Position numbers and translations under genes: made by a program. Positions 11,191 through 59,079 of a stretch of 64,000 bases of DNA are shown in pieces. A model generated the notes under the pieces. The model saw nothing but the letters and a program-made list of their open reading frames with translations. It ran no database searches and had not been told where the DNA came from. This stretch comes from Halisarca cf. caerulea. Taxonomy: Eukaryota > Porifera > Demospongiae > Chondrillida > Halisarcidae. How positions within the stretch are numbered: the stretch's first letter is position 1; each line of letters begins with the position of its first letter. Location of the stretch: the NCBI GenBank assembly GCA_963170055.1, contig CAUJGJ010000397.1:1875001-1939000 (forward strand). The letters run 5' to 3'.

Positions 11191-12063
11191 TCACTGAGTG
11201 GTTAAGTGTAAGAAGGCCAATATATGAAACATGCTATTCTGGTCAGAATTATACTGCTGAAGTTGAGGCATTTGAACATGATGTTTTTTTCGACTGTGAA
11301 CTTGGAGATATGATGGCTTCTGGTATGTGTAATGCTCTTGGGATTACAGTCATTTTATTGACTTCATTGAGACATCAGCCTACTATAGTGTTCTCACCAG
11401 AAGTGGTTGTACATGGTGCATTCAATTTTGTTAACATATATTTAGCATACAATGCTTATGGAAAGGGGCATTATGACAGTTTGTCTTATGTAGGGTCATC
11501 AAAGGATCATAAAGCATTTTGTCGGTGCGGAGTTAATTCAAAAGTGGAATCAACATTATCTTGTACTCATGAGGACAAAGGTATCAAAATATCGTAGCAG
11601 ATGTCCATGCTTGCGACAAAATTTGGCTTGTACAGCCAAATGTGGTTGCTTGAGGTGTGGAAATCCAAATGGTAGTAGACCTTTACATTCATCAGAATCT
11701 GATAGACGCCACAGAAAAAGATCATTGTATGATTACCAAGGTTTTGTACCCAGTAGTAAAAAATTTGCCCTTCAAGAAAGAGAAATGCTAAAAACTGGGA
11801 AATGGACAATTGTCAAAAATTTTCTTCTTGCCCTTATCCTCAGAAAAATGAATGTCACTGATCCAGCAGATGCCTTTCTCCCCTTCAACATTGCAGTACA
11901 GGAGGCCAAGTCAATACTTACGGGCAATGAGGACACTCTGTGTCCAAGGAGCATACGTTCTTTATCAGCAAAAATGGCCTGCACAGAATCAACAAGGAGG
12001 CTGTCATTCATTGACCTTTTCATGCGTCTTCAGGATTGTCCCAATGAAAATAGTGATGAATAA
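11191..12063 (+). pseudogene. OTU C-terminal half plus Cys-rich CXC-like domain
   Basis: Resumes the OTU domain after the inserted transposon: TEWLSVRRP, then FDCELGDMMASGMCNALG and NAYGKGHYDSLSY, whose GHYDSL contains the His expected for the OTU triad. A single-base frameshift near 11577 moves to the frame KYRSRCPCLRQNLACTAKCG, a run of Cys like the CXC (tesmin-type) DNA-binding domain, followed by CLRCGN. The rest to 12063 is a moderately conserved-looking tail ending LQDCPNENSDE. With the zinc-ribbon/RNase-H-like part at 6943, the full order is zinc ribbon, nuclease-like, OTU, CXC. That is consistent with a transposase that binds its ends through Cys clusters; this is inference. Confidence 0.7.
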
Positions 12064-35602: not shown

Positions 35603-38282
35603 ATGCCTTCCCGAATACGGAGAAAACGAAGTTACTTTCAGGCATACTCTAGGCAGCATTCTAAAACATCACCGCAAAGTGACAAGACCTTTGTTACTGT
35701 ACAGGCCAAAATAGAACAGGATTGAAATAGAGCAAAAAAGAGATATCATGAAAATCCTGACGTGAAAAAGGATGCTTCTCGTAGATATTACCGGCATAAT
35801 CCTTTACCATACAAACAACGGTCTATTGCTGTATACAAACAAAATCCACAAAAGGGCAAACTCCATTCAGCAATACGATACGCGGCTAATCCAGAAAACA
35901 GAAAGCTGCATTCCAAAGTGCAATATGCGACTAATCCAGAAAAGGGAAAACTGCATTCCAAAAATCAATATGCTGCTGATACGGAATCAGCTAAGTTGTA
36001 TTCAGCAAGGAGATACACAGCAAATGTACAAATAGCAAAGGATTATGGTAAGTTGTCCTATTATCGTGATAGGCATAAGAAAAGAAGACAAATGAGGCTT
36101 TATCACCTCCGCAATGGAAAGTTGTACAAGAGAAATAGGTATGCGTTGAAAGAGCCCGGATTTGCCCTTAGACAACTATTCATTGAACGCTTACATGCCT
36201 CTATTTCCAGTGACAATAGTGCTGTAGTTCAGATAGTCAAATCCTTTCAAAAGAATCTCCCACAAACAAAAATGTCGAAAGTAGTGATGTCTACTGCTAC
36301 CACTATAGCACTAAAAAGGCTAATGAATAGAATTCTACAGCTTCGCCGTTCTGCTGCGGGAAATTTGATGAAAGCAATTCGTAGCATTCTCAATGTCACA
36401 GTGGGTGTTTCGACCAGGGAAGGCTTTGGTGAATGTATACACACTAGCCATTCTGAGCCATACTTTTATGAAGCTGCCACACATGTTAAATGTGGAACTG
36501 ATGTTCAGTCCAGCTCAGAAGATCATGCTAGCTTGTGCTCAGGTCGACCTGTGCATGCAAGCACAAATGCAAGTACACCTCACTGTGAACATCTCCCAGT
36601 AGTGCTCCCTGTGGACAGGAGTGGGAGATGTTACACCACAGAATTTAGCATCGACAAATCTCAACAACAGAAAAACTTTGACGGGGAGCATGTTAAGCAA
36701 TGGCCTTGTACATCTCTGTGCAAGCCCATTGAACAGTGGGAAGCGGATTCTATTTTGGAACTCATAAAGTCCTTTGAGTTACCAGTTGACCAGTTGAGGC
36801 AACAATTAAATGACATTGATAGTGGCTGCCCTTATACTCACTTTGCAAGACCATGCCACAATGAGTGTACTGATGATACAGCACAACAACCACTCAGGGG
36901 CCACGCCTTGCATTGCTATGTCGATAGTGGGTGTAATAGTAAACTTAGAATCCTCAGAACTATATCAGTCCACTTCCCACTGCTACGTAAGGTTCTACGT
37001 CTTGTGTACAATGCCCTGCGTGCTCACAATTCTTTGTTGCTAATTGATTCCTCTTTGCATGAAGGTCACTTTGTTGCCATGATGAGCCTACTAGGCTTCA
37101 ACTCTTTTGATGAGTTGATGAGCAATAATGTTGCAAACACATTTACCACACTTGATTCATCAGACACATACGATTTAATTGATGAAGCGGACCTTTGTTT
37201 GAAGCATACTGAAGTAATTGCGAACTTCAATAAAGAAATCAGCGATTTCCCAGTTAATGTGTGTTGTTGTTGTGAGCGCTTACATCAAAGGAAATCTGTA
37301 TCCAAAATTGCCCTTGATACCAACCTTGACAATCCTGTTTGGCTTGCTTTAATTGCATACATTCAATGCAGAAATCCATCTGCTGAGAATGAAATCCTCT
37401 ACATGTGCAATTACTGCAAGCCACTCGTTTGCAAATGCATCATGCCTCCAAGATGCGTCCTCAATGGACTAGAAGTACTACCGGTGCCAAAAGAGTTAAA
37501 AAAACTTGATTACCTCAGCAGACAAATCATCCAGTTAGCCAAGTGCTACCAGACTGTCGTCAGGCTAGGTACATACACAAAGAAGGTACCTTTGTACAAC
37601 TCCCTCAAGGCTTGCAAGGGCACAATGCTCTTCCTTCCTCTGCCCATCATGAAGACCTTGGCAACTATTGATGACCTCTCCAATACTGACACTCTACATC
37701 TGCCCAACCCAGAACTGTTTATCATTTTGAATGGACAGCCCACTAAGGCAAAATCAATTTGGCGAAGTCTTGTCAACATCTCCAATGTCAGAGCTGCTGT
37801 TGACAAGCTCAAGGAGATCAATATCCTCTACATGAGCCTAGATAGTAGCTCTGTTGATGATGCTGCCAAAGGTTGTGGAGGTGTCTACAACCTCCAAGAC
37901 CACAATGATGGTTAAGGCCACTAGTGAGGACATCCAGGGATTCCAGTCCTATACTATCCGCAACATGGACAACCATGTCTTCACAGAAAATGATACTGAG
38001 CAATACAAGATGCTCAGCATCAAGGATGCTCCATTAGACAACCGGATGAAGTTCCTGGATGTTATGTGTTTTCCAGTGTTGTACCCGATTGGCAAGTTTG
38101 GAGAGCATCATGACCGTCAGGTTAAAATCTCTCATGGCGAGTTTATCAAGTCCCGCCTACTCAACAAGGATTCACGATTCCGTAAAGATCCTCAGTACAT
38201 TTTCTATTTGCTTTGGCAGAAGGATATGCGCGAACTCTCGGCTGGTGTCTACAATATGCTTTTAAGTCAGGTAGGAAGCTTT
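35603..38282 (+). pseudogene. Helitron 1 Rep-helicase, N-terminal part
   Basis: Starts at ATG 35603 (MPSRIRRKRSYFQAYSRQ). In-frame TGA at 35723-35725 breaks it, and the frame then continues to about 37870. Residues near 35850-36040 form 16-17-aa repeats of NPEKGKLHSKxQYA type, basic and probably DNA-binding. A Cys-rich, DUF6570-like segment follows (NVCCCCERLHQ, then CNYCKPLVCKC). A frameshift near 37870 leads to EVSTTSKTTMM, FLDVMCFPVLYPIGKFG and RLLNKDSRF, a part commonly seen ahead of the Helitron_like_N domain. A second frameshift near 38270 passes into the Rep domain. Together with the next entries this is one polyprotein for rolling-circle transposition, damaged by a stop and frameshifts. 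Confidence 0.75.
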
Positions 38283-40158
38283 CCCTATCTGCTGGTAGCC
38301 TGCTTAAGCAGATTGAAGCAGCTGATCCTACGATCGAGGCTTGCCTCAGCACCATGCTGCAGTCTGTCAGAGGTACTAAGCAGTATTGGTTCCTGAGGAA
38401 AAGTGAACTTCAGTGTATGATCAGGGAGTTTGGGTCACCCACATTCTTCCTGACTTTCAGTTGTGCTGAGTATGAGTCTCAGGACATGACAAAGTTCCTG
38501 TTTGAGGTGAATGATGCACCGCCCTCCTATAACATAGGGAAGCTCTGCACAGAAGACCCAGTGTCAGTGTCCAGGAAATTCTCCCTCAAGTTCCACGCTT
38601 TCTTCCAGACTGTAATATCGAAAGGACAGATCCTAGGCAAAGTCAGCCACTTCTACTGGAAGAAGGAATACCAGTCACGTGGAGCCCCTCACTACCATGC
38701 CCTGGTGTGGATAGAGGATGCTCCAGTGATTGGTGTGGACCCACCAGAAAAAGTGCTGGCATGGATTGATGACAGAATCTCCTGTCAGATCCCAGATGAC
38801 CAGCTCAGTCCTGAGCTGCATCAACTGGTCACCAGGTTCCAGTTGCACAAATGCAGCAACTACTGCAAGCGCCGAAGGCGTTGTGGTAAGACCTTCATCA
38901 CACGCTGCAGATTTGGCTTTCCTCGGCCAGCTTGTGAGGCTTCAACTCTCAATGATGTTCAAGATTCTCTAAAGTCACGGCAGAGGATCTACCACCTGAA
39001 GAGGAAGCACTCTGAAGAGAGGGTGAATGACTACAACCCTCTGATCCTCTTGCTATGGAAGGCCAACGTTGACCTTCAGTATGTGGCTGAGAAGTCGCTG
39101 GCTCTTGCTCACTATGTCAGTACATATGTGACAAAAGCTGCAAAGAGCCAGATGCAGGATATCTGGCAGGAAGTTAGTGAAAACCAGAGTGTGTACAGCC
39201 GCTTGTGGAGCTTTGGCATCAGAAGCCTTAGATCTCGGGAATGTGGGATGTATGAGGCTAGTGACCTTCTTCTTGGTGATCATCTCACAGAGAAGTCTGA
39301 TGCAGTGTACTGGGTAGACACCCGTCAGCCACATAAGAGGACACGCAGAATACGCGACTTCAAAGTTCTCAAATCACTAGTTGATAATGATCCCAAATCA
39401 AATGACATCTATGAGCCCAGTCTGCTGAATACTTTCTACCCCGGTCGTCCCAACGAGCTCGAGGATGTCTGTCTGTATGACTTTGTGAGCAAATTTAACT
39501 GGTCAGGCAAAGATAACCAAGGTCTGCGGCAATACAAGAAGCTTAACAAGCTAAGGACCATCAGCCACAAATTGTTTGATCCTGACAATGCTGACCAGAG
39601 GCAGGATTATTTCTATTCACTTCTCCTTCTGTTTGTGCCCTTCAGAGAGGAGTCAGCTCTCCTAAGTGATAATGAAACCCCTGAGGAGGGTTTTAAGCGA
39701 CTTGCTGCCTCCAGTGAGAGTTGCAGTCCGCATCATGAGAGGCTCAAGGTAGCTCTCCATGCTCAGAGCACTGTCCTTGAGCTCAATGAAGCACGCCAGG
39801 CTGACCAAGAGGAGAAATGCATGGAGATTGACGAGCCTCAAGTTCATGGTGAGGCATGTACTGCAATGGTTGACATCCACACCATCAATGAACCTCCTGC
39901 TGACCCACTCAGTGTAGATGAGAGGATTTCAATGCTCAACTCAGACCAGAGGCGCATCTTTACTCGTGTGCGTGACCATCTCTTGCATCAGCAACAACAT
40001 GAGTTGGCGAAATGCCACTGTGACTTCAAACCACTCTGCATGTTTGTAAGTGGTGTGGGTGGGACTGGCAAATCATTCTTGATTGAGACTATAAAAGGTT
40101 TTGTCAACAGCACTTGGTCCAGTGAGGATGTTACGTGTGCTGTAGCAGCTCCCACAGG
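38283..40158 (+). pseudogene. Helitron 1 Rep (HUH nuclease) domain and start of helicase
   Basis: The frame carries the Helitron_like_N/Rep region. REFGSPTFFLTFSCAEY and the HUH motif QSRGAPHYHALVW (two His around a hydrophobic residue) bind the metal; HYVSTYVTKAAK holds the two tyrosines, spaced Y-x3-Y, that attack DNA. Downstream is the PIF1-type helicase start CMFVSGVGGTGKSFLIE (Walker A) and AAPTG. A one-base loss near 40158 (GGACTGCC where GGAACTGCC would give TAAFN) shifts the frame. Rep nicks one strand at the element ends; the helicase peels it off. Confidence 0.85.
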
Positions 40159-41463
40159 ACTGCCGCCTTCAATGTGGAAGGCATCACTTTACATCGCCTG
40201 TTCCAGCTTCCCATTGAGCACGAAGGGAAGATGGCTGGATATTGGACACTCCCAAAGAGTGCACAGAAGGTGATGAAAACAACCCTTCGGAGTATGAAGC
40301 TTATCATCATTGATGAGATATCAATGATCTCTAGCTTAAACCTGGTCTACATGCATTTGCGGCTGGAAGAGCTCTTTGGTAGTGCAGACTGGTTTGGAGC
40401 CCAAAATGTTCTATTTGTTGGGGACCTTCTTCAACTACCCCCAGTCAATGGGAATACCATCTTTGAGAGGGTTGCTAAGAAGGCCCTACTCCACAGACTT
40501 GGATGCACAACTGCTGTGAACATCTGGAAAGAGGCAGTTGCCTATGAGGAGCTAACTATCAATGAGCGTCAGAAGGACACTAAGTTTGTTACCCTCCTTT
40601 ACCATGTTCGAAGGGGTACTCTGTCAAACGATGATGTTTCTATGTTGAATTCACGCATTGTGGACATGCCTGCAGCAGATCTGTTTTCAGGGCTGTCTAA
40701 GTGTGGGAAGACACCAGTCTGCCTCTTCCCTACCCAGAAGCAATGTGACAACTTCAACAACAAGATGCTGAACAATCTGCCAGACAAAGTCCATGACTTG
40801 GCATGTGTTGATAACATTGATGAAACTGCGAGCACACAAAAGTGGACTAAGAAAGCACAGGCACAATTAGATAAAGTCAATGCTGACTGTAATCAAACAG
40901 CAGGCCTCCAGGCATGCCTGCATGTTGCAGTAGGAACTCGTGTCATGCTGCGCAGGAACATGAACACCAAGGCTGGTTTGGTCAATGGAGCACTTGGCAC
41001 TGTTCTCTCCATTGACCCCAATGCAATCCGTGTACAATTTGACCATATTTCAGATCCTTATTGTGTGGAAACTGTCAAAAGCAGATTCTTCCTCATGAAG
41101 AATTTCTGCGTCTACCGATGCCAGTTTCCACTGATTTTGGCCTATGCAGTCACAATTTACAAGTGCCAAGGCCTTTCTCTAGACACAGCTATTCTCGACC
41201 TCTCCGAGCACATCTTCTGCTCAGGTATGGCCTATGTTGCCTTGTCTAGAGTTCGCACTCTGGATGGACTGTACTTGCTGAAATTCAGTCCAAAGGCCAT
41301 CATAGTTAGCACCAAATGTATTGAAGAGGTTAACCGATTGCGTGCTGCATACCGATCAGACCTGCCTCTCTTGGATGTGCCTGCTGGAAGTGCACCTCGT
41401 AAGAGAATGTTCCAAGGCTCAGTGCATGATCTTCCTCCTCTAAAGAAGCAGCCCGTAAATTAA
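40159..41463 (+). pseudogene. Helitron 1 PIF1-like helicase domain
   Basis: Continues from the previous entry in a new frame: AAFNVEGITLHRLF, motif II in LIIIDEISM, GDLLQLPPVNG, then the C-terminal motifs YKCQGLSLDTAILDL and YVALSRVRTLDGLYL (motif VI). All expected SF1B motifs are present once the frameshift is allowed for. It ends at TAA 41461-41463; the same frame goes on, after twelve codons, to the ATG of the OTU part, so the stop may be secondary and the original protein a Rep-helicase-OTU fusion. Confidence 0.85.
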
Positions 41464-41499
41464 AAGGCTCCTGTTAAAAATTGTAAGTCATGGAGGCCT

Positions 41500-42249
41500 A
41501 TGTCTACCCGTCATAGCCATTGTCTTAGTCCTGTTGTGCATGGCATTAATAGTCCATCAGCGTTTTTGAATGTACCAGTTGCCAATCATGTTCAACAAAC
41601 TTCTCAGACTTTGTCCAATATTAAATGTTCTCCCTCTCTCCCCAAGTCCCCAGCTAATCGAGATGAAAGTCACGTGGTCTGTACAGGTTGTGAACAGCAG
41701 CACTTCCACTTCTATCCTGTGGATGAAGACTGGCAACGAGCTGCATGTAGTCAGATGGGACTTCAGTTTATACAGTCCAATGGAATGACCCCTGGTAGTC
41801 CTACCATGCCTCTCACAGCCCCTAACATGCAGAAAATTAAGAGAATACGTGGTGATGGTAACTGCCTTTTCCGTTCATTCTCTTATCTCATTACAGGCAC
41901 TCAGAGACAGCACAGAGCTGTGAGACAGGCCATTGTAGACCACATGATGGAGATTGAAGGTGACTTGACCGCCTTGAGCCTTGATCCTTCCTACAGAAAT
42001 GCCACTCACTACATTGCTATCACCAGGATGGGTGAGAACAACACTTGGGGTACTAGCTTAGAGATTTGGGTATGTGCTCATTTGCTGCAAACCACTATCT
42101 ATGTATATAGTGAGAATGAGCACTGGAATAGATATGGTCCTCAACTGGATGTAAGGGTCTATGATGTTGATTCAGTTGAAAAGGCACTGTATATCTTAAC
42201 CACCCTCCTGGACACTTTGAAGTGGTCACATCAATCTAGATTACAGTAG
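41500..42249 (+). CDS. Helitron 1 OTU cysteine protease domain
   Basis: In the same frame as the helicase after its TAA. The motif IRGDGNCLFRSFSYLI has the Asp and Cys of the OTU active site, and NTWGTSLEIWVCAHLL fits the Trp-Gly segment. The usual C-terminal His (as in SSHFTAL of Helitron 2) is not seen: the tail reads YILTTLLDTLKWSH and then runs into a MITE that supplies the last codons, Gln and stop. It is therefore probably truncated. OTU domains are common in Helentron-type Helitrons. Confidence 0.8.
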   Translation: MSTRHSHCLSPVVHGINSPSAFLNVPVANHVQQTSQTLSNIKCSPSLPKSPANRDESHVVCTGCEQQHFHFYPVDEDWQRAACSQMGLQFIQSNGMTPGSPTMPLTAPNMQKIKRIRGDGNCLFRSFSYLITGTQRQHRAVRQAIVDHMMEIEGDLTALSLDPSYRNATHYIAITRMGENNTWGTSLEIWVCAHLLQTTIYVYSENEHWNRYGPQLDVRVYDVDSVEKALYILTTLLDTLKWSHQSRLQ

Positions 42250-47630: not shown

Positions 47631-47700
47631 TATATATATATATCAATGAATATTATTATATTTCATGACTTGGTATATGAAGAAGTAACCCTTCATCGAT
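47631..47700 (-). repeat. Lead segment of minisatellite unit, copy 2
   Basis: TATATATA followed by ATCAATGAATATTATTATA and ACTTGGTATATGAAGAAGTA, the complement of 2598-2650. Confidence 0.85.
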
Positions 47701-48039
47701 AGACAATACTCAACAAGTGGCAAACGTTAGCCTGCTATTGTCACGTGCTAATTACGTCAGCATAAATTATGCTAAAGAACGTTTGACATTACTCCAACAC
47801 GGAGAAATTGAATCGCTCCCTTTGTTTGAGCTTTCGCTACTTTGGCATGAGCGCTTTTTAGTGTGAACCTTGCACCTCGCTTTTAACATTGTACTAAACA
47901 GTCACACAATGTCATATACATACACGTGCATATGTACATGTAAGGATATATAAAAATGTAACTTTTATACAACACAACCTCTCCACATGTGCTTATATGT
48001 AATACAAATATGCACTGACATACCTTTTCTTTTACACAA

Positions 48040-48090
48040 ATACCCACACACCCACCCACCCACCCACACACACACACACACACACAACAC
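48040..48090. repeat. (CCCA)n/(CA)n simple repeat
   Basis: CACCCACC units passing into (CA)n. Short minus-strand frame over it is an artefact. Confidence 0.9.
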
Positions 48091-48191
48091 ATGAATATGT
48101 AGTTTCTGCGTTGATAGTCTTTTAAGCAGCCAGTTTATCTAGGTAAAATTTGTTCAATTTTAACATATTATCATCATTTTCCTCTTTTCAG

Positions 48192-48977
48192 GGTAGAGTG
48201 TTTAACAAGATTTATGGTGCACGTAATCACCAGTGTATCTTGGTGCAACAACACGTAGCTGAGTTATATTGTATTACTTGTAAATGTGTATGTAGTCAGC
48301 ACAAGTGCACCATTTGCATGGTTCACATTCATCCACATGGCCTGATAGTCAACTTTGCCCACAAAAGCTGTTTATCAGTTACGGGCTGTACATTAAAGTA
48401 TCATAGTTTTCACGGTTTAGTCTATTTCCATTTACTACTTTCTGGGGATGTAGAATTGAATCCTGGTCCCAAAAGGTTTTCTGATGTTCCAAAATTTAAA
48501 GCATGTATTTCTGAATGGAAGTGTTTCATGTTTCTATTTTTTATCATACTTTCAATGTTTATATTCGATCATGTGTTGACCTATCCGTTTCGTACCCTTT
48601 GTATGCGAAATTCGAGTTGTAATTCGACTGAAAGTAACTTTAGGCAACATTTCGAACTGAACTTGCATCATGTCATACGTATTTGTCCAAATCTAATTAA
48701 TATGACACATCAAGTTCTTATTTCAGTGGCAAAAAGATCACGTTGGATGATGTTCAAACAATATTTATCGAAACGTTCATATTTTTACGCAAGACTACTC
48801 CTTTTATTATTACTTTTAGCTGGAGATGTTGAGCGTAATCCTGGACCCATTCAGGATGTAATTAAGGACATTGTCTCCAATCGGAATCTACTACATTTAT
48901 TGGTGATAAGACAAAGGCAATGTTGCAAGGTCAAGACAGTAAAACTTCCAGTAAAGATGATTGTGAAAGGAAAATAA
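48192..48977 (+). CDS. Helitron 2 leader polyprotein with two 2A motifs
   Basis: The frame opens after a strong acceptor (TTTCCTCTTTTCAG, ending about 48191), so an upstream exon is likely. A Cys/His cluster (YCITCKCVCSQHKCTIC, then HIHPHG) is B-box-like. LLLSGDVELNPGP and LLLLAGDVERNPGP fit the 2A consensus D-V/I-E-x-N-P-G-P with Leu-rich lead-ins; the DVE...GP octets are at 48447-48470 and 48825-48848. Such motifs make the ribosome skip the Gly-Pro bond, so one transcript would give three chains. The middle chain is 126 residues with a membrane-like stretch, FMFLFFIILSMFIF. A one-base shift near 48900 joins this frame to the coiled-coil frame at 48920, linking it to the Helitron. Confidence 0.75.
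   Translation, partial: GRVFNKIYGARNHQCILVQQHVAELYCITCKCVCSQHKCTICMVHIHPHGLIVNFAHKSCLSVTGCTLKYHSFHGLVYFHLLLSGDVELNPGPKRFSDVPKFKACISEWKCFMFLFFIILSMFIFDHVLTYPFRTLCMRNSSCNSTESNFRQHFELNLHHVIRICPNLINMTHQVLISVAKRSRWMMFKQYLSKRSYFYARLLLLLLLLAGDVERNPGPIQDVIKDIVSNRNLLHLLVIRQRQCCKVKTVKLPVKMIVKGK
48447..48470 (+). promoter_or_regulatory. 2A-type ribosome-skipping motif 1
   Basis: Codons for DVELNPGP preceded by HLLLSG. All invariant residues (D, E, N, P, G, P) are present. Skipping itself is inferred from the motif. Confidence 0.75.
48825..48848 (+). promoter_or_regulatory. 2A-type ribosome-skipping motif 2
   Basis: Codons for DVERNPGP preceded by eight leucines and AG, the best-known context for active 2A sequences. 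Exactly 378 nt after motif 1 and in the same frame. Confidence 0.8.
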
Positions 48978-49810
48978 GATTGGATCAATTTGCTGAAAGT
49001 CAAAGGAAACATCGGGAGAAGGAGAGTGTAGAACAACGAGATATGCGACTCAAAGCAATGCAGGCTATGCAGAAAAGTCGCCTTAAATTGGAAACTGATA
49101 CTGAACGGGATAAGAGACTTGGAACATTGGCCATAAATCAAAAAAGGAGATTGGAGAAAGAAACACCACAGGAACATGATGAGAGGCTGGCATTACTGGC
49201 TATCAATCAAAAGAGAAGATTTGAGAAAGAAACACCACAGAAACATTATGAGAGGCTGGCATTATTGGCTATAAATCAAAAAAGAAGATTACAGAAAGAA
49301 ACACTGCAAGAACGTGACGAGAGGCTGGCAATATTGGCAGCAAGCCAAAGTAAAAGAATAGAAAAAGAAAGTGATGAAATGTGAGGAAAAAGACTCAGAG
49401 TTAAGCAGGAAAACAGAAAGAGCAATTGGATAATGAATCTGCCGATGAACGTACAGATAGATTGGCAAAGATGGCAGAGCATAGGAAGACTATGTTGGAA
49501 AATGCTACTCCTGAGGAGGAGTTAAGAGGAAAGAAAGCCAGATACAAAGGAAGCGGCGATGGCTGGAAGGCGAGAATGAAGAAGCCAAAAAAGTAAGATT
49601 AGAGAAAGAAAAACTACGGAAGAAGTAAGCCAGGGAACAGCAAACTGGGGATGAGGGGTTAAAGAATAAGAAAAAGCAACAGGAAAGGAAACGACGATGG
49701 CAAGAAGGTGAGACTGCGGAAGCAAAAAAAGCAAGACAGGAGAAAGATAGACTTAGAAAGAAGCAAGCCAGGGAAAAAAACAAACGACATCTCTACAGAT
49801 TAATTCTGAA
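48920..49810 (+). pseudogene. Helitron 2 charged coiled-coil linker
   Basis: Tandem repeats of about 23-24 residues, reading LALLAINQKRRFEKETPQ with variants, then a Lys/Arg/Glu-rich stretch to about 49805 that needs stops and shifts to be skipped (TGA at 49382, others near 49530-49650). Typical of the basic repeat region ahead of DUF6570 in Helitron polyproteins. No enzyme motif; likely nucleic-acid binding or spacing. Confidence 0.6.
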
Positions 49811-51351
49811 GTGCAGATGACACCATTAACAAATTCTATAAAGCAAATTGTCTCAAACAGAGATAGATTCTTCAAGACAATTTGTGATGGACCGTCTCAT
49901 GCATGTTATGCATGTCAAAAGTTCTGTTACAAAGAGAATGCTCAATTTTACTCATGTGATGAGGCTAAGAAACTTATTGCACATCAAAATGTAAATTCTC
50001 AATTGGTTACTTCTGAATGGTTCTGTCATAGGTGCGTATCAGCACTGAATAGAAACAAGGTTCCTAGTACTTCACGATGGAATGGAATGAGTGTTTCTCC
50101 CATACCTCAAGAACTTCAAGGGCTAAACAGTCTTGAAGAGCGACTTATCGCACGTGTGGCTCCATTCATGAAGTTAGTCCTTCTGCCACGTGGTGGACAA
50201 AGAGGAATAACAGGACAGGTGATCAACTTTCCATCACCAATGACTGATGTATTGAATCAACTTCTACGACCAGCTACCAGCAGTGACATTGTGTACATAA
50301 AGGCACCAACTTCGAATTCATTAAAAGAGTCCAAACCATTATACTATCATTGTCGTTATACACGCGTAATGAAAGCATTGAAATGGTTACAGGAAAACAA
50401 TGTCACTTATAAGAGCATCAGCATCACAAACCAATGCGAGGAGAACTTTGATTCAACTGATGATCAGGACGAGACAATGGAGGAATCAGGTGTAGTACAG
50501 AGTGACTTTCTGATGCCAGATGTGCCAATGAATGAATTTTTGATGGAAGGTACCTTTCCAGTGCATCAACTTGAAAAGATAACAAGTGCTCCACTGAGCA
50601 TCTTTAACAAGCAACAACTTGAGGTTTTGGCATTTCCAACACTTTATCCCGATGGAAATAATGGATTTGGTACTCATCGACAATTCTCAATTACACCTTT
50701 GGACTATTTTCAAACCAGAGTAATGAGTAAAGATTCCCGCTGGGCCAAACACCCATCATATACATATCGTTACATTTCTGCCAGAATTCCAGAAGAAGGA
50801 TGTGGTGAGGACAGCTTGCGGTCTGTAGTTCTTCGAGTTCAGAAACATAATCATACATCTACTTGCATCAAGAAGGACAAAAGGAAAAAATCAAAAGAAT
50901 GTCGTTTTGACTTTCTACAACCTTTGTCGTCCATTACTCGTCTCAAGAATAATGAAGATGTAGGTAACAAGTCCCGGTTCTATATTCTCAGGAGAACTGA
51001 TGGTGAAGAAAACATCAACCCATACAATGCTCCACTACTCTTAGTATGGCAGGCCAACATGGATATACAGTTGATTGGATCGGTTTATGGGACAGCATCT
51101 TACATATGTTCATACATGTGCAAAGGTGAGAGCGAAGAGGTGAAGAAGGCTATCAGTGATTCCCTTCAATCACTAGCACCGAATGCTTCACTTCGAAAAC
51201 GATTATCTAAATTGGGAAACACTATGCTTTCGCACAGACAGTTAAGTGGCCAAGAAGCAGCCTATCGGTTGTGCCACTTACCATTAAAGGATTCGTCGCG
51301 TAAAGTTGTCTTTGTCAACACTGTTCCTCCTGAAAAGAGAACACACAGGGC
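49811..51351 (+). pseudogene. Helitron 2 DUF6570 and Rep N-terminal region
   Basis: Intact to the C2 insertion. CYACQKFCYKENAQFYSC and WFCHRCVSALNR are Cys pairs; GLNSLEERLIARVAPFMKL is the DUF6570 signature as I know it. The Rep-associated AFPTLYPDGNNGFG, YFQTRVMSKDSRWAKHPSY and ASYICSYMCKGESEE (Tyr-x3-Tyr) follow. I do not see the HUH motif (HYHxLVW type): between PSYTYRYISARIPEEGC and SLRSVVLRVQKHNHT sequence seems to be missing, so the nuclease may be internally deleted. At 51351 the frame reads EKRTHRA and is cut by element C2; it resumes RARILKNRSELLELDDMD at 52405. Confidence 0.75.
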
Positions 51352-52404
51352 CATTATAGTCGGGCTCAGAAATCGGGGATTTTAGGTGACAAAGTACTGG
51401 AATTTAAGGAATGTATCACCATACGTCACGATGTGCGGATCAGCTGAAGTGAATCGTATTTATACATCATCAAAAGCCGCACGAAAGTCACACTGAACAG
51501 GCAAAACAAGATAATATTAAGACCCAATCCAACTACTACTAGACTAGAGTCAACTTGAATTCAAACATTGCCAGAATCACGATTACCAATACGCTGTGGC
51601 AAGCCAACGGTTACTCTTTCGTTATTACGCTTAGAGGACAACCAGTACACGCCATGAAAAAACATGAAAGTATCAAGAACTTACCGATAAGACTCGAAGA
51701 TTGATTGATCGAACCTCCCGCTAAAGACTCGGCGAAAAGAAGTGTCGACAAAAGACTAAAGTATCCGGCGGATTAGTATCCGCGAGTATCCATGGCATTA
51801 ATCGTGTACGCGCTTGGTGACGACATTCTACGCATGCGCAACGTCACAGTTAAATGGTCGCTTGCAACCAAGTTTATAAAAATCGTGGGATCCGGACGTG
51901 TAGATGGCCATCATACCCTTCAAAGAAGATATTGTTGGTTTCAAAATAGTTGTGTAGACGTATATTTGGTGAGCGGAGAAGATATAACCAGGTACGCTAA
52001 AGTTGTAACCATTTTAAAGTCTAATTTTCACATTTTTTTTAGCCACAAAAGTACATTTTTTCTTATAAGTGTTTCAGGAAGGATTATATTTTTCCCGCTC
52101 ACGAATAGCTTATAGAGTAAATTTTTCTCTTTCATCTCTACCAATCTTGTAGCTGTTTGTAAGCGTCTACACGTCCGGACATCCACGTTTACTGCAAAAC
52201 ATACCACTTTTTCCGAGCTTGTTTTAGATTTTCTGAAAAGAGATACATTTATATCTTGTACACTAACATTTCGATATATAGTCAATGAACATAACAGATT
52301 CAAATAGCTACGAAAATGTTGTTCTAAACTAAGAAATCCGGTATATTTATAACCGCTTCCAAGCGGCAGCCATTTTTTCTGGTTTTGCCAGCCCGACTAT
52401 AATG
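51352..52404. mobile_element. Non-autonomous element C, copy 2
   Basis: 1053 bp. CATTATAGTCGGGCT at the left tip and its complement AGCCCGACTATAATG at the right; shared left-end block and GTGAGCGGAGAAGATATAACC core with copy 1, and the same internal foldback around TCCGGACGTGTAGATG. Flanks GGC and AGC may be a decayed 3-bp duplication. Removing it restores THRA-RARILKNR in Helitron 2. Confidence 0.85.
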
Positions 52405-52900
52405 AGCCCGTGCAAGGATTCTCAAGAATCGGTCCGAGTTACTTGAGCTGGATGACATGGATACCAATCTCTTTTAACCATGACTATTTGACAGATATGC
52501 TGCAAGACCACAGGAAGAAGAATTCGAGAAGATGACGTTGGCTCACTTTTTTGTATGGTATGATAGTGTATATAGGGATGACACACCAAAGGGCGGCAGT
52601 GGGCATCACATTCAGCCTCGATTCCAATTGCAAGGCAATCTGGGATGGATCAAACTTCGTACAAAGCAAGCGTGCCTTCGAACACCCATTATGACACCAC
52701 AAAGTCACGGTGATGAGTATTACTATTCACTGTTGCTGTTGTACATTCCGTGGAGACGTGAGAAGGAGGACTTACTTCTGAAGCACGACAGTGCATTGTC
52801 AGCTTTCATTGCTCGTGAAAAGGAGATGAAAGTGCTGAATTGTGAACACCATACTTTTGCAGAAGAAGTACAAAGAGCTGTGCGCAATTGCAAGCAGTTT
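52405..52900 (+). pseudogene. Helitron 2 region between Rep and helicase
   Basis: Resumes after C2: RARILKNRSELLELDDMD, then after a stop and shift near 52475 RYAARPQEEEFEKMTLAHFF, DEYYYSLLLLYIPWRREKEDL and EEVQRAVRNCKQF. The pattern of a 'PWR' motif ahead of the helicase is usual in Helitrons. A frameshift near 52900 passes to the helicase frame. Confidence 0.7.
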
Positions 52901-54500
52901 CTGATGGCGCATACATGGATTTGGTTGCACCAAATGTTCAACATGGTGAACGGGAAGATGCTACAGATGTACCAGAGGAACTGGACCATGGTTTACACAA
53001 CGCTGAAAATTATGTTCAAGATGAACAGGTGGATGTAGGTGCTCTTCCCACAGTAGCAGACGACAATTGTGCCAATGGAGCCCTCACACACATGCGCCTC
53101 ACTGATAAGGCTTTCACAGAATTGGTATGCAATTTGAATGCAAGACAGAGAGAAGCATTTGACATGGTAGTACAGTACACTAGCTCGTTACACAAATTTC
53201 ATCTCGGACAGGAGGCATCACAACCAAAACCTATCCGCATGTTCATAACTGGTGGTGCAGGGACGGGAAAGTCTTATGTGATTCGTGCCATCAGAGAACA
53301 TATTGAGAGGTCAGTGCAAGGGAGTGATGAAGTGTATGGATGCATGGTCATGGCACCAACGGGTGTAGCTGCATTTAATGTGGATGGCCTAACAATTCAC
53401 AGAGCACTTAATCTTCAAGTTGAGCATAGAAGGTCTGCCTACCATTTAAAGTTAATGGCTGTAGCACTTCGAGAGCTGAGGATGCTGTGGAGAGGCATAC
53501 ATACCATCATTATTGATGAAATTAGCATGGTATCTTACGAAGTTCTCCAGTCTGTCCACTATCGACTGTGTGAGATATTTGCCAATGATGACATCTTTGG
53601 AGGACTGAATGTGATTGCAGTTAGTGACTTTTATCAGCTCTCACCTGTCAATGGACACTTTGTGTTTAGTGTGACAAAACTGCAGTCGAAACGCTTGGCA
53701 TCTCACCTTTGGAAGGACTGCTTTCAAATAGTAGAATTAACTGAAAATGTGAGACAACAAAAGGATTCGTTCTTTTCAGACATGTTGAATCGTGTTCGAG
53801 TAGGAAAGCAAACGGAACAGGATATTAAGTTGCTGGAAAGTCGCATGGTGGTAGGAAACAACATTGATCTTTCAAAGCCACCATTTGAAAAGGCTCTAAG
53901 GTTGTTTCCTCGTGTTGCAGATTGCAATGCATTTAATGAAGGAGAATTGATGAAACTCTCTTCAAATACTCCAATCTTTGAATTTGAAGCCGATCATGTG
54001 CCTTTAGAAAACAGAAGATCGACTTATGGGGCAGTCTTGTATGAGAAAGTGACTGAAGAATTAATTCCAGAGAATGACAAGGAATGTGGAGGACTACCAA
54101 GAAGGCTAAAAATGGCACTAGGAGCTGAAGTCATGTTACGACGTAACATCAAGTGTGGAGATGGGCTAGTGAATGGAGCCCAAGGAGTCATTGTGGGATT
54201 CAAGTGGGGTGGAAAACAGAATACACAGCCCTCACGTGGAGCCTTACCTGAAATTGTACATGTAAAGTTTCACGATCCAAGAGTTGGACAGTTTACCAAA
54301 GTGTGCATCCTCAATGAACAACAAGAGGCAGTGGCCATTGAACCCTTGTCGGTGCGATTCTATGGACAGCAAGGCACTGTTCTACAGCGGACTCAGACAC
54401 CCTTAATTTTGTGTTGGGCCGCCACTTTACACAAAGTGCAAGGTCTGTCACTTGATTCTGCTGTGTTGGACCTTGGAGAGAAAGTGTTTGAGGCCGGAAT
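52901..54500 (+). pseudogene. Helitron 2 PIF1-like helicase lacking motif VI
   Basis: Frame with NLNARQREAFDMVV, Walker A in MFITGGAGTGKSYVI, APTGVAAFNVDGLTIHR, motif II in TIIIDEISMV, VSDFYQLSPVNG, VMLRRNIKCGDGLVNGAQG and HKVQGLSLDSAVLDLGE. After EAGM the expected YVALSRV-type motif VI (with the arginine finger) is absent; the sequence goes to FRGAAGGFITVSEG and a stop. A deletion here would abolish ATP hydrolysis. The following OTU frame overlaps at 54452. Confidence 0.85.
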
Positions 54501-55468
54501 GTTCAGAGGTGCTGCCGGTGGATTTATCACAGTCTCAGAAGGATGAACCACCCACTTCTCTTCAAGATATAAGCATGATGGAAACAGATTTGGATGACTT
54601 TTTGTTGAGGGACGTCTTGGAGGAAATGAAGAGAGACGTACCAGTAGTTCAATTATCAAGTCAAGAAATTCACACAACATGTACTAAGGAGGTGAGAGAA
54701 TTTATGCAGAACATTGAGGACATTCTCAAAAGTAAAAAGAAAGAGTCAATGGAAGAATTAAAAGAATTGATGGAAGATAACAAGATTGCTATGAAAACTT
54801 TAATAAATGAGGTTAACAAACAGGAAGATGACATTTTCAATGTGGAAACTCATGTGGTGGACATGTCTGTACAAGAGGACATTTTGCCCTCATTTACATC
54901 ACAATATGTTCCAGTGAGGACCACGGGTGATGGGAACTGTATGTACAATACCATCTCCATTGCACTGCATGGCACGGAAGAATATACAGCACATCTGAGA
55001 GCAATCACTGTGTACAGCTTATTAGAAAATAAGGAGCATATGTTTGAGGTGATGAAGCCTAGTACACAACTATTATTACGTAATGTGGATCGAAATGAAG
55101 AAAATATTACAGCAATTACAGAAAGGGAATGGAGCAAACTTTTGCAAGAAGCAGCTCAAGACCAATGCTGGGGAAATCATTTCCACTTGCATACCTTGTG
55201 TCTTATGTTAAAGAGGCCAATATACATGTATGGCTATATGCGACACAGAAGTGTAGGAGAACTTGACAGAGTGGATGTAAACAGTTCATCTGTGGAGATT
55301 GAACGATTGTTTCAACAGAAAGACAGGAGAATGAACAATCACATCAAGTACTTGCCTTCAGTTGAAGACTACCCCGCCATCAGAGGCTTTTTCGACTCTT
55401 CTCATTTCACAGCATTATTGCCAACAACATCCACATCTCACTTTTTTCAAACCCTTTGTATCATTTAG
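54501..55468 (+). CDS. Helitron 2 OTU cysteine protease domain
   Basis: Read from the frame after the helicase break, DLSQSQKDEPPTSLQDISMM. An acidic, coiled-coil-like linker (EELKELMEDNKIAMKTLI) comes first. VRTTGDGNCMYNTISIAL gives Asp and Cys, DQCWGNHFHLHTLCLML the Trp segment, and DSSHFTALLP the His, so the full OTU triad is present. It ends at TAG 55466-55468 without lesions. It probably was the C-terminus of the Helitron polyprotein; as a free ORF it might still be folded, but expression is unknown. Confidence 0.8.
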
Positions 55469-57418
55469 GTCTCACTGGGGGTGTGAAATGTAATAATTAT
55501 TGTATTGAGGACTGTGTTTATGCACATGTAATTATATTTTGTAATTATTTACAACTTTTACTTTCGCCTCATGTTTCCAAAGGATATCAAAATTTGATTC
55601 GTTCCTCATATGATGCTTCATAACTGCAATCATATAGGGGCCAGAATGTGCATGCTCCCTATATTATTTCATTTATGAAGGCAATCAATAAAATCTTTTT
55701 GTAGTTAGAAATGTCAAAATTGCTGTTGAAGTGTATATGCGGGATAACTAACATGCCCAAATAAAAACTTGGATAGTAAATACTAAATAAAAAAATCAAC
55801 CATAGGCCAAACTAGAATAATTCTTAGATTCTTAGATACATACATAGGTTCTCCCCACGATGACAAAATTGTCATCATATATCACCCGGTGTGAAAGGTT
55901 ATGCATAAGTTTTATGCTACTTTGAATGTAGGAGCATGTATCGCTGCTACACACGACACCATCCATTCAAAAATTATAAAATAATCTGTGATGGTAATGA
56001 CAGCTTCCTTGTCAGTGAAGCACTATTGACAACAACATTAACTATTGTTGAATTGAATCAAAAGCATAAGATTAGCATTTAAATGCGTTTTGTCTAAAAA
56101 GAAATTAAAACTATTAAATATTAGGAAACCACTAATCTTATGCTACTATTAAAATAACAGCATGTTGCTGTTATGCACGAAGCCATCCATGAATGAATAC
56201 CTCTTGATGGCATTCTTTAGCTTTCATGTTTTGTGAAGCACCTCTTGGTCAACAATGTAATATCGTTGAATGTGATAGTCTAACTTGAATGAATTAGATA
56301 GAAACCAAAACTGAATTTTTATGCAATTAGACTACATTTCCATGCAGACTCCAAGTCTGTACAGCTTTTGCAACGCCCCTGCTCAGAGTCCAGTTATTTG
56401 GGGCATCTTGCAAATGCATCTAGAGTAGTTATTGTCCATATAGATAAGGTGGTTGAAATTTAGAGTTCATGTTTGAGCAAACATTTGTAATGAGCCATTT
56501 GCATTTAATTAGCAATCCTATAGCCTATAAGGGAAGAATATATGTCATTGGGGAGTATATATTAGTCATGTCTATACATCCATAGAACAAAGGCAAATGG
56601 CTAATCATTACACATTGAACCCCATATACAGGTAGTCAGTGCCACCTCAACCTTAAGTTTACACCACTCTGCAAATTGAGTACAACTATAAAAGGTTGGG
56701 AATTATGGCACAGTATATCACCCTTTACATCCTGTACCTGCATATATTGGTACGCAGTATACATTTCTTCTGGTATTTGCTACCTTCATCGGTATGCAGT
56801 ACCTTTCCCCATAGTACCTTCCTTTGGTACACAACTTCCAGTGCCTTTGATGGTAAACAGTACATTAATATATAGTCTCACATATTGGGCTATGCACATT
56901 GCACTGCCCAATGGAGACTTGCATAGATCACAATGATCATACTATTGACTACTTGTGGCCAATTTTGGATACCTTGTGCACCTTAGCACGGAAAAAATAT
57001 TATTATAACATGCTGACTACATTGATCTGCTGAAAGATCACATTGTATATTCTGTTCTTTATTCTATAGCTACACATTTAAGTGATTCTGGTGGATTACA
57101 CAACGGTACACCTGTACCATTATATGTATAGCATTTTATTGCACCATTTTTATTTTGGATTGGAGGAGTTTTACAGACTATTGCAGACCCTAGTTGAAAT
57201 GAATCCAATCCTCTGGGATGCAAAGCATGCCTACTTCCTCGTGGTGTATCCTGGGACTACTATTATTAAAAAAACTGACTAGATCATGATCCCAATATAT
57301 TGTTTGGATTATTGAATGCTTAGACTTGACACACACACACACACACACATTTTACTACACCACTACTCAAAACCATGCATTTCTTACAGTGATCTTTTGA
57401 GTCCATTAGAAAGATTTC
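55469..57418. other. Long non-coding stretch after Helitron 2
   Basis: AT-rich. GGTAYGCAGTA-like words recur at 56740-56870. (CA)n at 57328-57349. I cannot place a Helitron 3' hairpin and CTRR end with confidence. Confidence 0.4.
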
Positions 57419-57480
57419 CAAGTGATTCAAGTTTCCAGGGCCGTAGGCGGCCCACGTGTTTTTTAAACTCGAATCACTTG
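57419..57480 (-). repeat. E-type 5' hairpin, isolated
   Basis: CAAGTGATTCAAG (57419-57431) and CTCGAATCACTTG (57468-57480) pair around GGGCC/GGCCC. Read on the minus strand it starts ACAAGTGATTCGAGTTTAAAA, close to the start of family E. No E-like 3' hairpin was found nearby, so it may belong to a larger relative. Confidence 0.7.
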
Positions 57481-59079
57481 TTTGGCATTTCTTTCAGCAT
57501 TAAGAATGATTTGATTGAGGATAGGAGTCAAAGCATACTTCTCTGACACAGGATTTTCTTCATCACCAATTTGAAACTGCTTTAACAGTAGTGAAAGTTG
57601 TTCATTACGTTGTGCTAGTTTCTCAATGTTATCCAAAACTTTAAAGTAGTCTGTGATTCTGGTCTATGCATCATCTGAAATGGCCTTTTCCAGCTTTCTT
57701 TTCATCCTGGCACTTCTTGACCAGACAAATGAAGAAATCTTACTAATCACCCCCCCCCCCCTTCACCACTATGAGGAAGGGCTTGGGTAAAATCCTGATT
57801 GTGAGTGTTGTCCAAGCTAGGAGAGGAGACTTGGACTTCTAATGATGATCCCAGATTGACTTCTAGTGATGATTCCAGATAGGGAGACACAATATTTGAG
57901 GTTCCACTTGATGTTTCAGTTGACTGAGTGGTTGCAGTCGAGGTTCCAGTTGAGGTTCCAGATGTTGTAAGCAAGCTTCCAGGCAGAATTTCTGTTTGGA
58001 GATTGCTGGCAGTCTTATTTGCAAACAGGAAATTACTGATGGGTGACTGTTGCATGGGCGCAGCATGCTAATCTGATTCAGTGTAGCATTTCTTGACGTG
58101 TTTAGTCCAATTGGAAATCAAGAATGGAGCACATATGTCAGATCTGTCTTTCTGCTGTAAGGAAATATTAGTTTTGCACATTGAACATCTGATTGTTACT
58201 TTGAATGATCCATGGTTGCTTGCAGACCGGGTTACTGATAATGAGTATTGTGAGTTCTCCTGAAGATTCCTCAGCCTTCTATCAGTCTGTTGGCTGATCC
58301 ATTTCTGTACTCCTCCTGATTTGTTGAGCTATACTGCTAATGCTTAACGTGCTTTCTTCACTAACATTAGCATGAGTCATGGATGATGAAGCCATTGCAG
58401 TTGCATTGGAAGCCTTTTTAGCTTGTATGGTACCATGGGTGGTAATTGATGGCTGCTTTCTTTTCCTAGAGGCTGACAATGGTGCAAGTGTTAATGATGA
58501 TCTTGTGGTTTGACCCTTGTGTAACATTTTACTTCACGAACGAAATTACGTATCTGTACTCTGGGTCCTTGTGGGAATTCAAAAGGTAAGTCTGATTCAG
58601 AAGTGGTTGGGCAGCTGCAATATTCAGAATTGCCAGAAAATCGCTTTGAGATATAGTTTTCAATGAAGCAATGGAGTTTCCTGGATTGTCACTGATATCC
58701 ATGGTATATAGAAATCACCTCAGGAACATCAAAGCCTGCTGCAACGAAGCACTTCACAATGTAGTCAGGTAGTCGTTCTCTCATCAATGACTGTATATCA
58801 AATGATTCCTTTTTATTATCATGAGTACCCTCAAGGGTTGGCCAAGTTTGGGACTCATTATGGGTTGATCTCGAGGTTGATTGCATCTTTGTCACACACT
58901 CAGTTACACTATAATAAAAGAATAATAGTTCAATTAATTATCATAACAATAATATATGTATTTAATGGTGTGAAGATCATTTGCAAGACCCAAGCTATGC
59001 ATGTATTATTCTAATCTTATTAGTTTTGTCAATTCACAAATAAAACTGTTTATATTTACCTTTGTTGACTCTGAGCCAT
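57460..59079 (-). pseudogene. Ser/Thr-rich zinc-finger protein, decayed
   Basis: The first exon, 59060-59079, is just 20 nt (MAQSQQ); a 151-nt intron (58909-59059) joins in phase to SVTECVTKMQSTSRSTHNES. The sequence continues through MRERLPDYIVKCFVAAGFDV, then, with frameshifts near 58705, 58530 and 58280, through a basic Ser-rich part to TIRCSMCKTNISLQQ...NWTKHVKKC, a C2HC zinc finger. An in-frame TAG (before HAAPMQQSP) precedes a Ser/Thr-rich stretch. The C-terminus has another TAG just before TRITDYF, where Gln would make a PIP-box-like QxxIxxYF, then a coiled-coil-like tail ending NAKQVIRV inside the E-type hairpin. Function unknown; probably transposon-related. Confidence 0.5.

Follow-up and report, generated by a model that had tools for sequence, protein, structure and literature searches.

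The replication protein of a Helitron family in the sponge Halisarca cf. caerulea appears to be expressed as a 2A (StopGo) polyprotein, a reading to which we give a probability of roughly 0.8. Its starting point is a pair of 2A cores in the window, i.e. the entire 64-kb stretch of DNA that was analysed. The core starts of 2A-1 and 2A-2 lie 378 nt apart, which corresponds to 126 codons in one reading frame, and besides these two sites the window has no NPGP in any of its six frames. Both sites conform to the core (D/G/C/N)(V/I)ExNPGP given in the available part of PMC12846837. By reading, the lead-ins before the D at p12, LLLSG in 2A-1 and LLLAG in 2A-2, are Leu-rich and end in (A/S/C)G; the same ending before the D is given for the Leu-rich lead-in motifs 2 and 6 in the available part of that source, where motif 6 is among those tested and was active in reticulocyte lysate. 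The original prediction had described two full DVExNPGP motifs with Leu-rich lead-ins, in frame and 126 codons apart, and this was borne out when window coordinates and frame were checked. Simulated windows (first-order Markov, n = 60) contained NPGP 22 times in total and DxExNPGP not once. A strict DNA pattern for DVExNPGP gave 154 matches (84 + 70) in the sponge's own genome (194 Mb) and none in the reversed control. A chance origin of the motifs is ruled out by the simulations, by this reversed-pattern control and by a reversed-core control in Helitron proteins (see below).

The two sites belong to a Helitron copy with the following parts:

47687..57482 (+): family-A Helitron copy, defective and apparently 5′-truncated; homology to most family-A copies begins at 47687
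48176..48191 (+): putative 3′ end of an intron, pyrimidine tract and AG, TTTTCCTCTTTTCAG then GGTAGAG, as judged from the sequence
48192..48467 (+): coding part of the predicted product 1, Cys/His-rich, ending ...NPG; from the reading frame and comparison with sister copy L033
48417..48470 (+): 2A-1, LVYFHLLLSG-DVELNPGP; core 48447-48470, core context ...LVYFHLLLSGDVELNPGP
48468..48845 (+): predicted product 2, a membrane-like chain of 126 aa; 19-residue window CFMFLFFIILSMFIFDHVL with a mean hydropathy of 2.35
48795..48848 (+): 2A-2, LLLLLLLLAG-DVERNPGP; core 48825-48848, core context ...LLLLLLLLAGDVERNPGP
48965..49186 (+): STPR block (PF21107), the first domain after 2A-2, E 2.4e-16
50051..50434 (+): DUF6570 (PF20209), E 2.3e-23
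50765..50766 (+): junction of a ~625-bp deletion in Rep; L033 5221-5846 (codons 964-1172 of its translation, P0001) is absent from the window copy
51343..52412 (+): insertion of 1,070 bp, a separate repeat that is also present in L047
53215..53820 (+): Pif1-type helicase, E 1.6e-27
54926..55255 (+): OTU-like cysteine protease domain, E 7.3e-11
57419..57480 (+): 3′-terminal palindrome (hairpin), fold z -4.93; none of 200 shuffles was as stable

The window copy is dead, a fossil, because upstream family-A sequence is missing, about 625 bp of Rep are lost and a 1.07-kb insertion is present. The deletion takes most of Rep (Helitron_like_N) including the HUH histidines, as the motif PHIHS at P0001 residue 1144 falls within the lost codons 964-1172. 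Seven other family-A copies have 0.2-0.8 kb of common sequence upstream of the point that corresponds to 47687, different from the sequence of the window, and L006 alone among the A copies matches window sequence further upstream, to 47140. The leader frame of the window copy stops at 48977, with the STPR block lying in another frame. This frame break, the Rep deletion, the insertion and the missing upstream sequence exclude the window copy as an active unit. At its 3′ end, AAACTCGAATCACTTGTT at 57465-57482 equals the terminal sequence of family-B copies. The block after the leader, originally taken for a 'Helitron 2 coiled-coil', is indeed present but is an STPR block, and it matches the solved domain of fibroin-modulator-binding protein-1. 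A second, different Helitron lies in the window at ~35726-42249 (+), with DUF6570, Rep, Pif1 and then OTU, and holds no NPGP.

With 48147-48977 as the query, at least 41 DNA matches were obtained in the own genome (194 Mb), 40 of 72 candidates being scored. At least 12 form family A (92-100% identity, window included) and at least 27 form family B (72-73% identity); a further two are pieces from one other place. Cores were examined in the 30 copies for which loci were cut, 12 of family A and 18 of family B. Both cores are present in seven family-A copies, one core in four and none in one, and the respective numbers for family B are 16, one and one. The two cores share one frame, stop-free from 80 codons before 2A-1 to 2A-2, in 5/12 copies of family A and 15/18 of family B. 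Among the ten loci fetched at 15 kb (eight family B, two family A), two have uninterrupted frames, L033 with 2,442 codons and L043 with 2,324, and both of these hold both 2As; the other eight are interrupted. The L033 frame, P0001, has the order Cys/His-rich segment, 2A, membrane-like segment, 2A, STPR, DUF6570, HUH Rep, Pif1 helicase and OTU, with the 2A cores at residues 151 and 287. Its domains include Helitron_like_N (PF14214, E 2.1e-31) and PIF1 (PF05970, E 1.7e-28), and its sequence matches solved structures of Pif1 helicases, Helraiser (7lcc, E 2e-16), an OTU enzyme and fibroin-modulator-binding protein-1. The central claim of the original prediction, that 2As precede a Helitron replication protein in its own frame, therefore holds at the level of the genome, given the single frames of L033 and L043 and the 16 of 18 family-B copies with both cores. 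The arrangement proposed for the window, 2As ahead of coiled-coil, DUF6570 and Rep-helicase, is in frame in these sister copies but not in the window itself, where the leader frame closes early. Since PF03372 (APE-type endonuclease) was not found in P0001 at E ≤ 1, the element would by this criterion be Helitron2-like and not a Helentron; some 2A-bearing relatives do carry a C-terminal APE-type endonuclease.

The borders of the repeated unit place the leader. On the 3′ side, six of nine other loci match L033 up to position 11745, where similarity ends, and the last bases are ...CACTTGTT in six of the seven loci shown, L033 departing after CACT. On the upstream side, the match of five loci to L033 begins at 908-917, which is 1.6 kb before the leader exon. 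L033 may be without the true 5′ end of the element, because four of these five loci resemble one another still further upstream. As the match of the other loci to L033 extends far upstream and downstream of the leader, the leader lies deep within a repeated unit that measures at least 10.8 kb in family B. It belongs to the Helitron and not to a stray piece of a retrotransposon. A third Helitron family in the own genome (L051) carries GGDVEQNPGP ahead of STPR and DUF6570, as well as an earlier GGDVE in another frame that is not continued by NPGP.

When the window and L033 were compared codon by codon, i.e. for one pair of copies from families A and B and with a simple method, all 18 residues of 2A-2 proved identical despite 11 synonymous differences in the 18 codons. 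This shows that at 2A-2 the peptide was kept rather than the DNA. The middle segment has 45% amino-acid identity over 106 codons. Conservation of 2A-1 (17/18 residues identical, pS 0.14) says little, because there are few synonymous differences in the entire first segment (75% identity over 75 codons, pS 0.20), a scarcity that suggests a different history of this segment. Families A and B (window 47754-57268 against L033) are 69-76% identical in the 5′ half, which comprises leader, STPR and DUF6570, and 95-96% identical over 50766-57268. As the 5′ half is far less alike, Helitron families appear to have exchanged a 5′ module.

The position of the start codon is uncertain, which counts against the main explanation. 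The sequence CAGGGTAGAGT at the putative splice acceptor is common to the window and L033 (CAG/GGTAGAG). Splicing probably has to supply a first exon, since in seven of the eight family-B 15-kb loci the stretch from the putative acceptor (in L041, from 92 codons back) to 2A-1 holds no Met; in the main exon of the eighth family-B locus and of both family-A loci, a Met does precede 2A-1. A candidate exon 1 with ATG and a GTAAGT donor, in phase and beginning MSLLTVK, MRILTVN or MRFLTVK, occurs in 6/8 family-B loci and in 0/2 family-A loci. The family-A upstream stretches among the matches listed contain other exon-1 candidates in L003, L009 and L012; five further stretches among these matches have no candidate, and an exon 1 common to family A was not found there.

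Helitron proteins from other organisms were collected by searching a 5.8-billion-protein collection with two Rep-containing queries, P0001 residues 690-1190 and P0054 residues 440-1240. The best 120 of 228 and the best 120 of 151 matches gave 232 different proteins, eight rows of the second search being already in the first. RepHel proteins with an upstream NPGP, for which the original prediction had proposed to look, do exist: the core (D/G/C/N)(V/I)ExNPGP is found in 55 of these 232 among the matches listed (10/120 from the first search and 45/112 new ones from the second), a share that is not an unbiased frequency, as the second query bore a 2A inside its region. With P0001 added there are 56 proteins with 62 cores, and among the matches listed each of the 62 precedes DUF6570 and Rep. 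Every NPGP in the 489,973 residues is part of a full core; the reversed core does not occur, and other permutations of NPGP have at most 12 occurrences each. The last 2A is followed by PRxKK in 28/56 proteins. Six proteins among the matches listed have two 2As, namely P0001 and P0004, P0005, P0006, P0013 and P0021, of which the latter five have one common leader type and are not all independent. Named hosts of 2A Helitron proteins are Saccostrea cucullata (P0026) and Branchiostoma lanceolatum (P0202). As to whether related Helitrons lack this leader, the answer is divided: the core recurs as described, yet among the matches listed it is absent from 177 of 233 proteins (P0001 included), 17 of which have fewer than 100 residues ahead of DUF6570/Rep, and a homologue of the leader alone (P0001 residues 60-420) was not found among 2,971 candidates in the protein collection. 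P0008, which is not among these 17 but has a longer N-terminal part, is nearly identical to a stretch of L051 of the own genome that is preceded by a 2A, with the start of the core 29 codons upstream; it looks like a truncated gene model starting after the 2A position.

The proteins encoded ahead of the 2A are diverse. First products of at least 70 residues (n = 42), compared without their last 30 residues by BLASTP at E 1e-3, form 13 clusters, and a further 14 of the 56 are shorter than 70 residues. A GDSL/SGNH esterase domain occurs in the largest cluster, which has 12 proteins. In P0127 and P0131 (residues 44-170) this esterase exceeds the Pfam cut-off and precedes the 2A, in P0054 it is below the cut-off, and it also appears in the precomputed domain lists of P0040, P0128, P0129, P0130 and P0133. 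An esterase is likewise part of ORF1 in CR1 retrotransposons. PF13472 is listed for three fish Helitron proteins without a 2A (P0086, P0095 and P0106). In the P0147 and P0140 clusters the first products consist mostly of short tandem peptide repeats (DTYCWEAGFLLNNSQ-like and RGRQPHKKMVKSYQ-like), and in P0196 a 2A stands upstream of a herpes tegument N-like domain (PF04843, 23.7 bits against a cut-off of 25). For the Cys/His-rich chain of the sponge element no Pfam family was found, at E ≤ 0.1 for the window leader and at E ≤ 1 for its L033 counterpart; its Cys/His pattern may be B-box-like. The middle chain gave solely a sub-threshold match to PIG-P. Because the first products fall into 13 clusters while the 2A and the replication protein persist, the 2A with the downstream replication protein looks like the constant feature and the upstream chain like an exchangeable one.

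A tree of the Rep domain was built from the 231/233 proteins with a match of at least 150 residues, dereplicated to 129 (23 with a 2A, 92 without one and 14 whose N-terminus is too short). The 2A label changes 19 times on this tree, at least 13 times on well supported branches, compared with 21.3 for shuffled labels, a number of changes that is inflated by truncated gene models. Values as low as that observed were reached by 39 and 45 of 500 shuffles, and under midpoint rooting 2As stand on both sides of the deepest drawn split. From the Rep tree we cannot tell a single origin with losses from many gains. On balance, we lean towards the view that 2A polyprotein expression is old and widespread in animal Helitron2/Helentron elements, the 2A being constant and the cargo (membrane peptides, repeat proteins, GDSL esterase) exchangeable. 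Capture of the 2A module from a non-LTR element is possible, because the same genome holds a 2A-bearing one, L052 (G000:C40:3450000-3452500), in which GDVEKNPGP directly precedes the endonuclease domain and a reverse transcriptase lies downstream in another frame.

According to the StopGo reading, one mRNA would run from an upstream exon across the leader into Rep-helicase, and a ribosome on the single long frame would fail to form the Gly-Pro bond at each NPG/P. Two chains would be released, first a small Cys/His-rich one and second a membrane-like one, which has 126 residues in family A, after which the ribosome would continue to make an STPR-DUF6570-Rep-helicase-OTU protein beginning with proline. 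We infer skipping at both sites from sequence, and functions for the two leading chains are likewise presumptive. The likeliest general role would be to provide an extra protein for the element and to separate Rep, a nuclear enzyme, from a hydrophobic leader by which it would be mis-targeted. The available part of PMC2978324 reports that certain N-terminal signal sequences inhibit 2A 'cleavage', which counts against the StopGo reading.

It is unlikely, though the strongest of the alternatives, that the motifs are a signal or anchor that happens to keep NPGP and that mainly delivers a fraction of the product to membranes instead of making separate proteins. The poly-Leu lead-ins are signal-like, 14/56 proteins have fewer than 70 residues before the first 2A, and a dual function has a precedent in a 2A-like N-terminus that is both signal sequence and recoding element (PMC4981915, available part). 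However, this does not fit well with two 2As per ORF, one of them ~290 codons in, nor with other relatives in which 300-600 residues, in some cases including an esterase, stand upstream. Moreover, a signal sequence needs no strict NPGP core. We consider it quite improbable that a separate transcript encodes Rep-helicase from an ATG of its own close behind 2A-2, and that the leader is a vestige. A Met does stand few residues after 2A-2 in L033 (PVDSMEDK), and the public gene model P0008 begins after the 2A position; against this, the leader frame is open in 15/18 family-B copies, and the 2A-2 peptide was kept despite synonymous change. Least credible, with hardly any weight, is a leader that belongs to a piece of non-LTR retrotransposon, bearing 2As and adjoining the Helitron. 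Such elements are present in the own genome (L052), but in intact copies the leader shares its frame with Rep-helicase, it lies within the repeated unit, P0001 has no RT or APE domain at E ≤ 1, and the same arrangement recurs in other Helitron proteins. For the current linkage, a neighbouring retrotransposon fragment is refuted by the L033 and L043 frames together with the family-B repeated unit.

Polyprotein expression by StopGo would connect the element to several known systems. APE-type non-LTR retrotransposons bearing 2As are said to have been described by Odon et al. in 2013. Like the Helitron, they are transposons whose ORF has a 2A ahead of catalytic domains (L052 is an example), but there the 2A precedes endonuclease and RT, whereas in the Helitron it precedes STPR-DUF6570-HUH Rep-Pif1, and no RT was found. 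2A-like N-termini reportedly belong to sea-urchin NLR genes as well; these, too, are 2As of a cellular genome with a signal-like sequence, but they differ in being a single N-terminal signal of a host gene. In the available parts of the literature, non-LTR retrotransposons and NLRs are the non-viral 2A carriers named (PMC11512398), and cellular genes are said to use StopGo rarely (PMC12846837). The 2As of picornaviruses and other RNA viruses have the same core, a Leu-rich lead-in and an upstream product split from replication proteins, and multiple 2As per genome occur in picornaviruses (PMC11512398, available part). The host here is, in contrast, a rolling-circle DNA transposon, with a predicted 2A activity. 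Helitron2/Helentron elements (PMC4067079, available text) have HUH Rep and Pif1 helicase, OTU and a 3′ palindrome in common with the present element, in which the endonuclease domain was not found; that text is without the words 'skipping' or 'esterase'. In the available part of the Helraiser paper (PMC4778049), T2A is merely a reporter tool. No report of a 2A in Helitrons was found in the literature searched, outside the scope of which lay the eukaryotic 2A survey of Rao et al. 2025, which may list Helitron proteins.

If the StopGo reading is true, rolling-circle DNA transposons join viruses, retrotransposons and a few NLR genes as users of this type of recoding, and do so in numbers. Helitrons would then be DNA transposons that routinely use ribosome skipping, an expression strategy like that of picornaviruses, which would explain how they make extra proteins without extra promoters and would supply many natural candidate 2A sequences. 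Some gene models that begin after a 2A are probably truncated, P0008 being one case. The variable N-termini of Helitron proteins would become interpretable, as the part before the 2A would be a separate cargo and not Rep.
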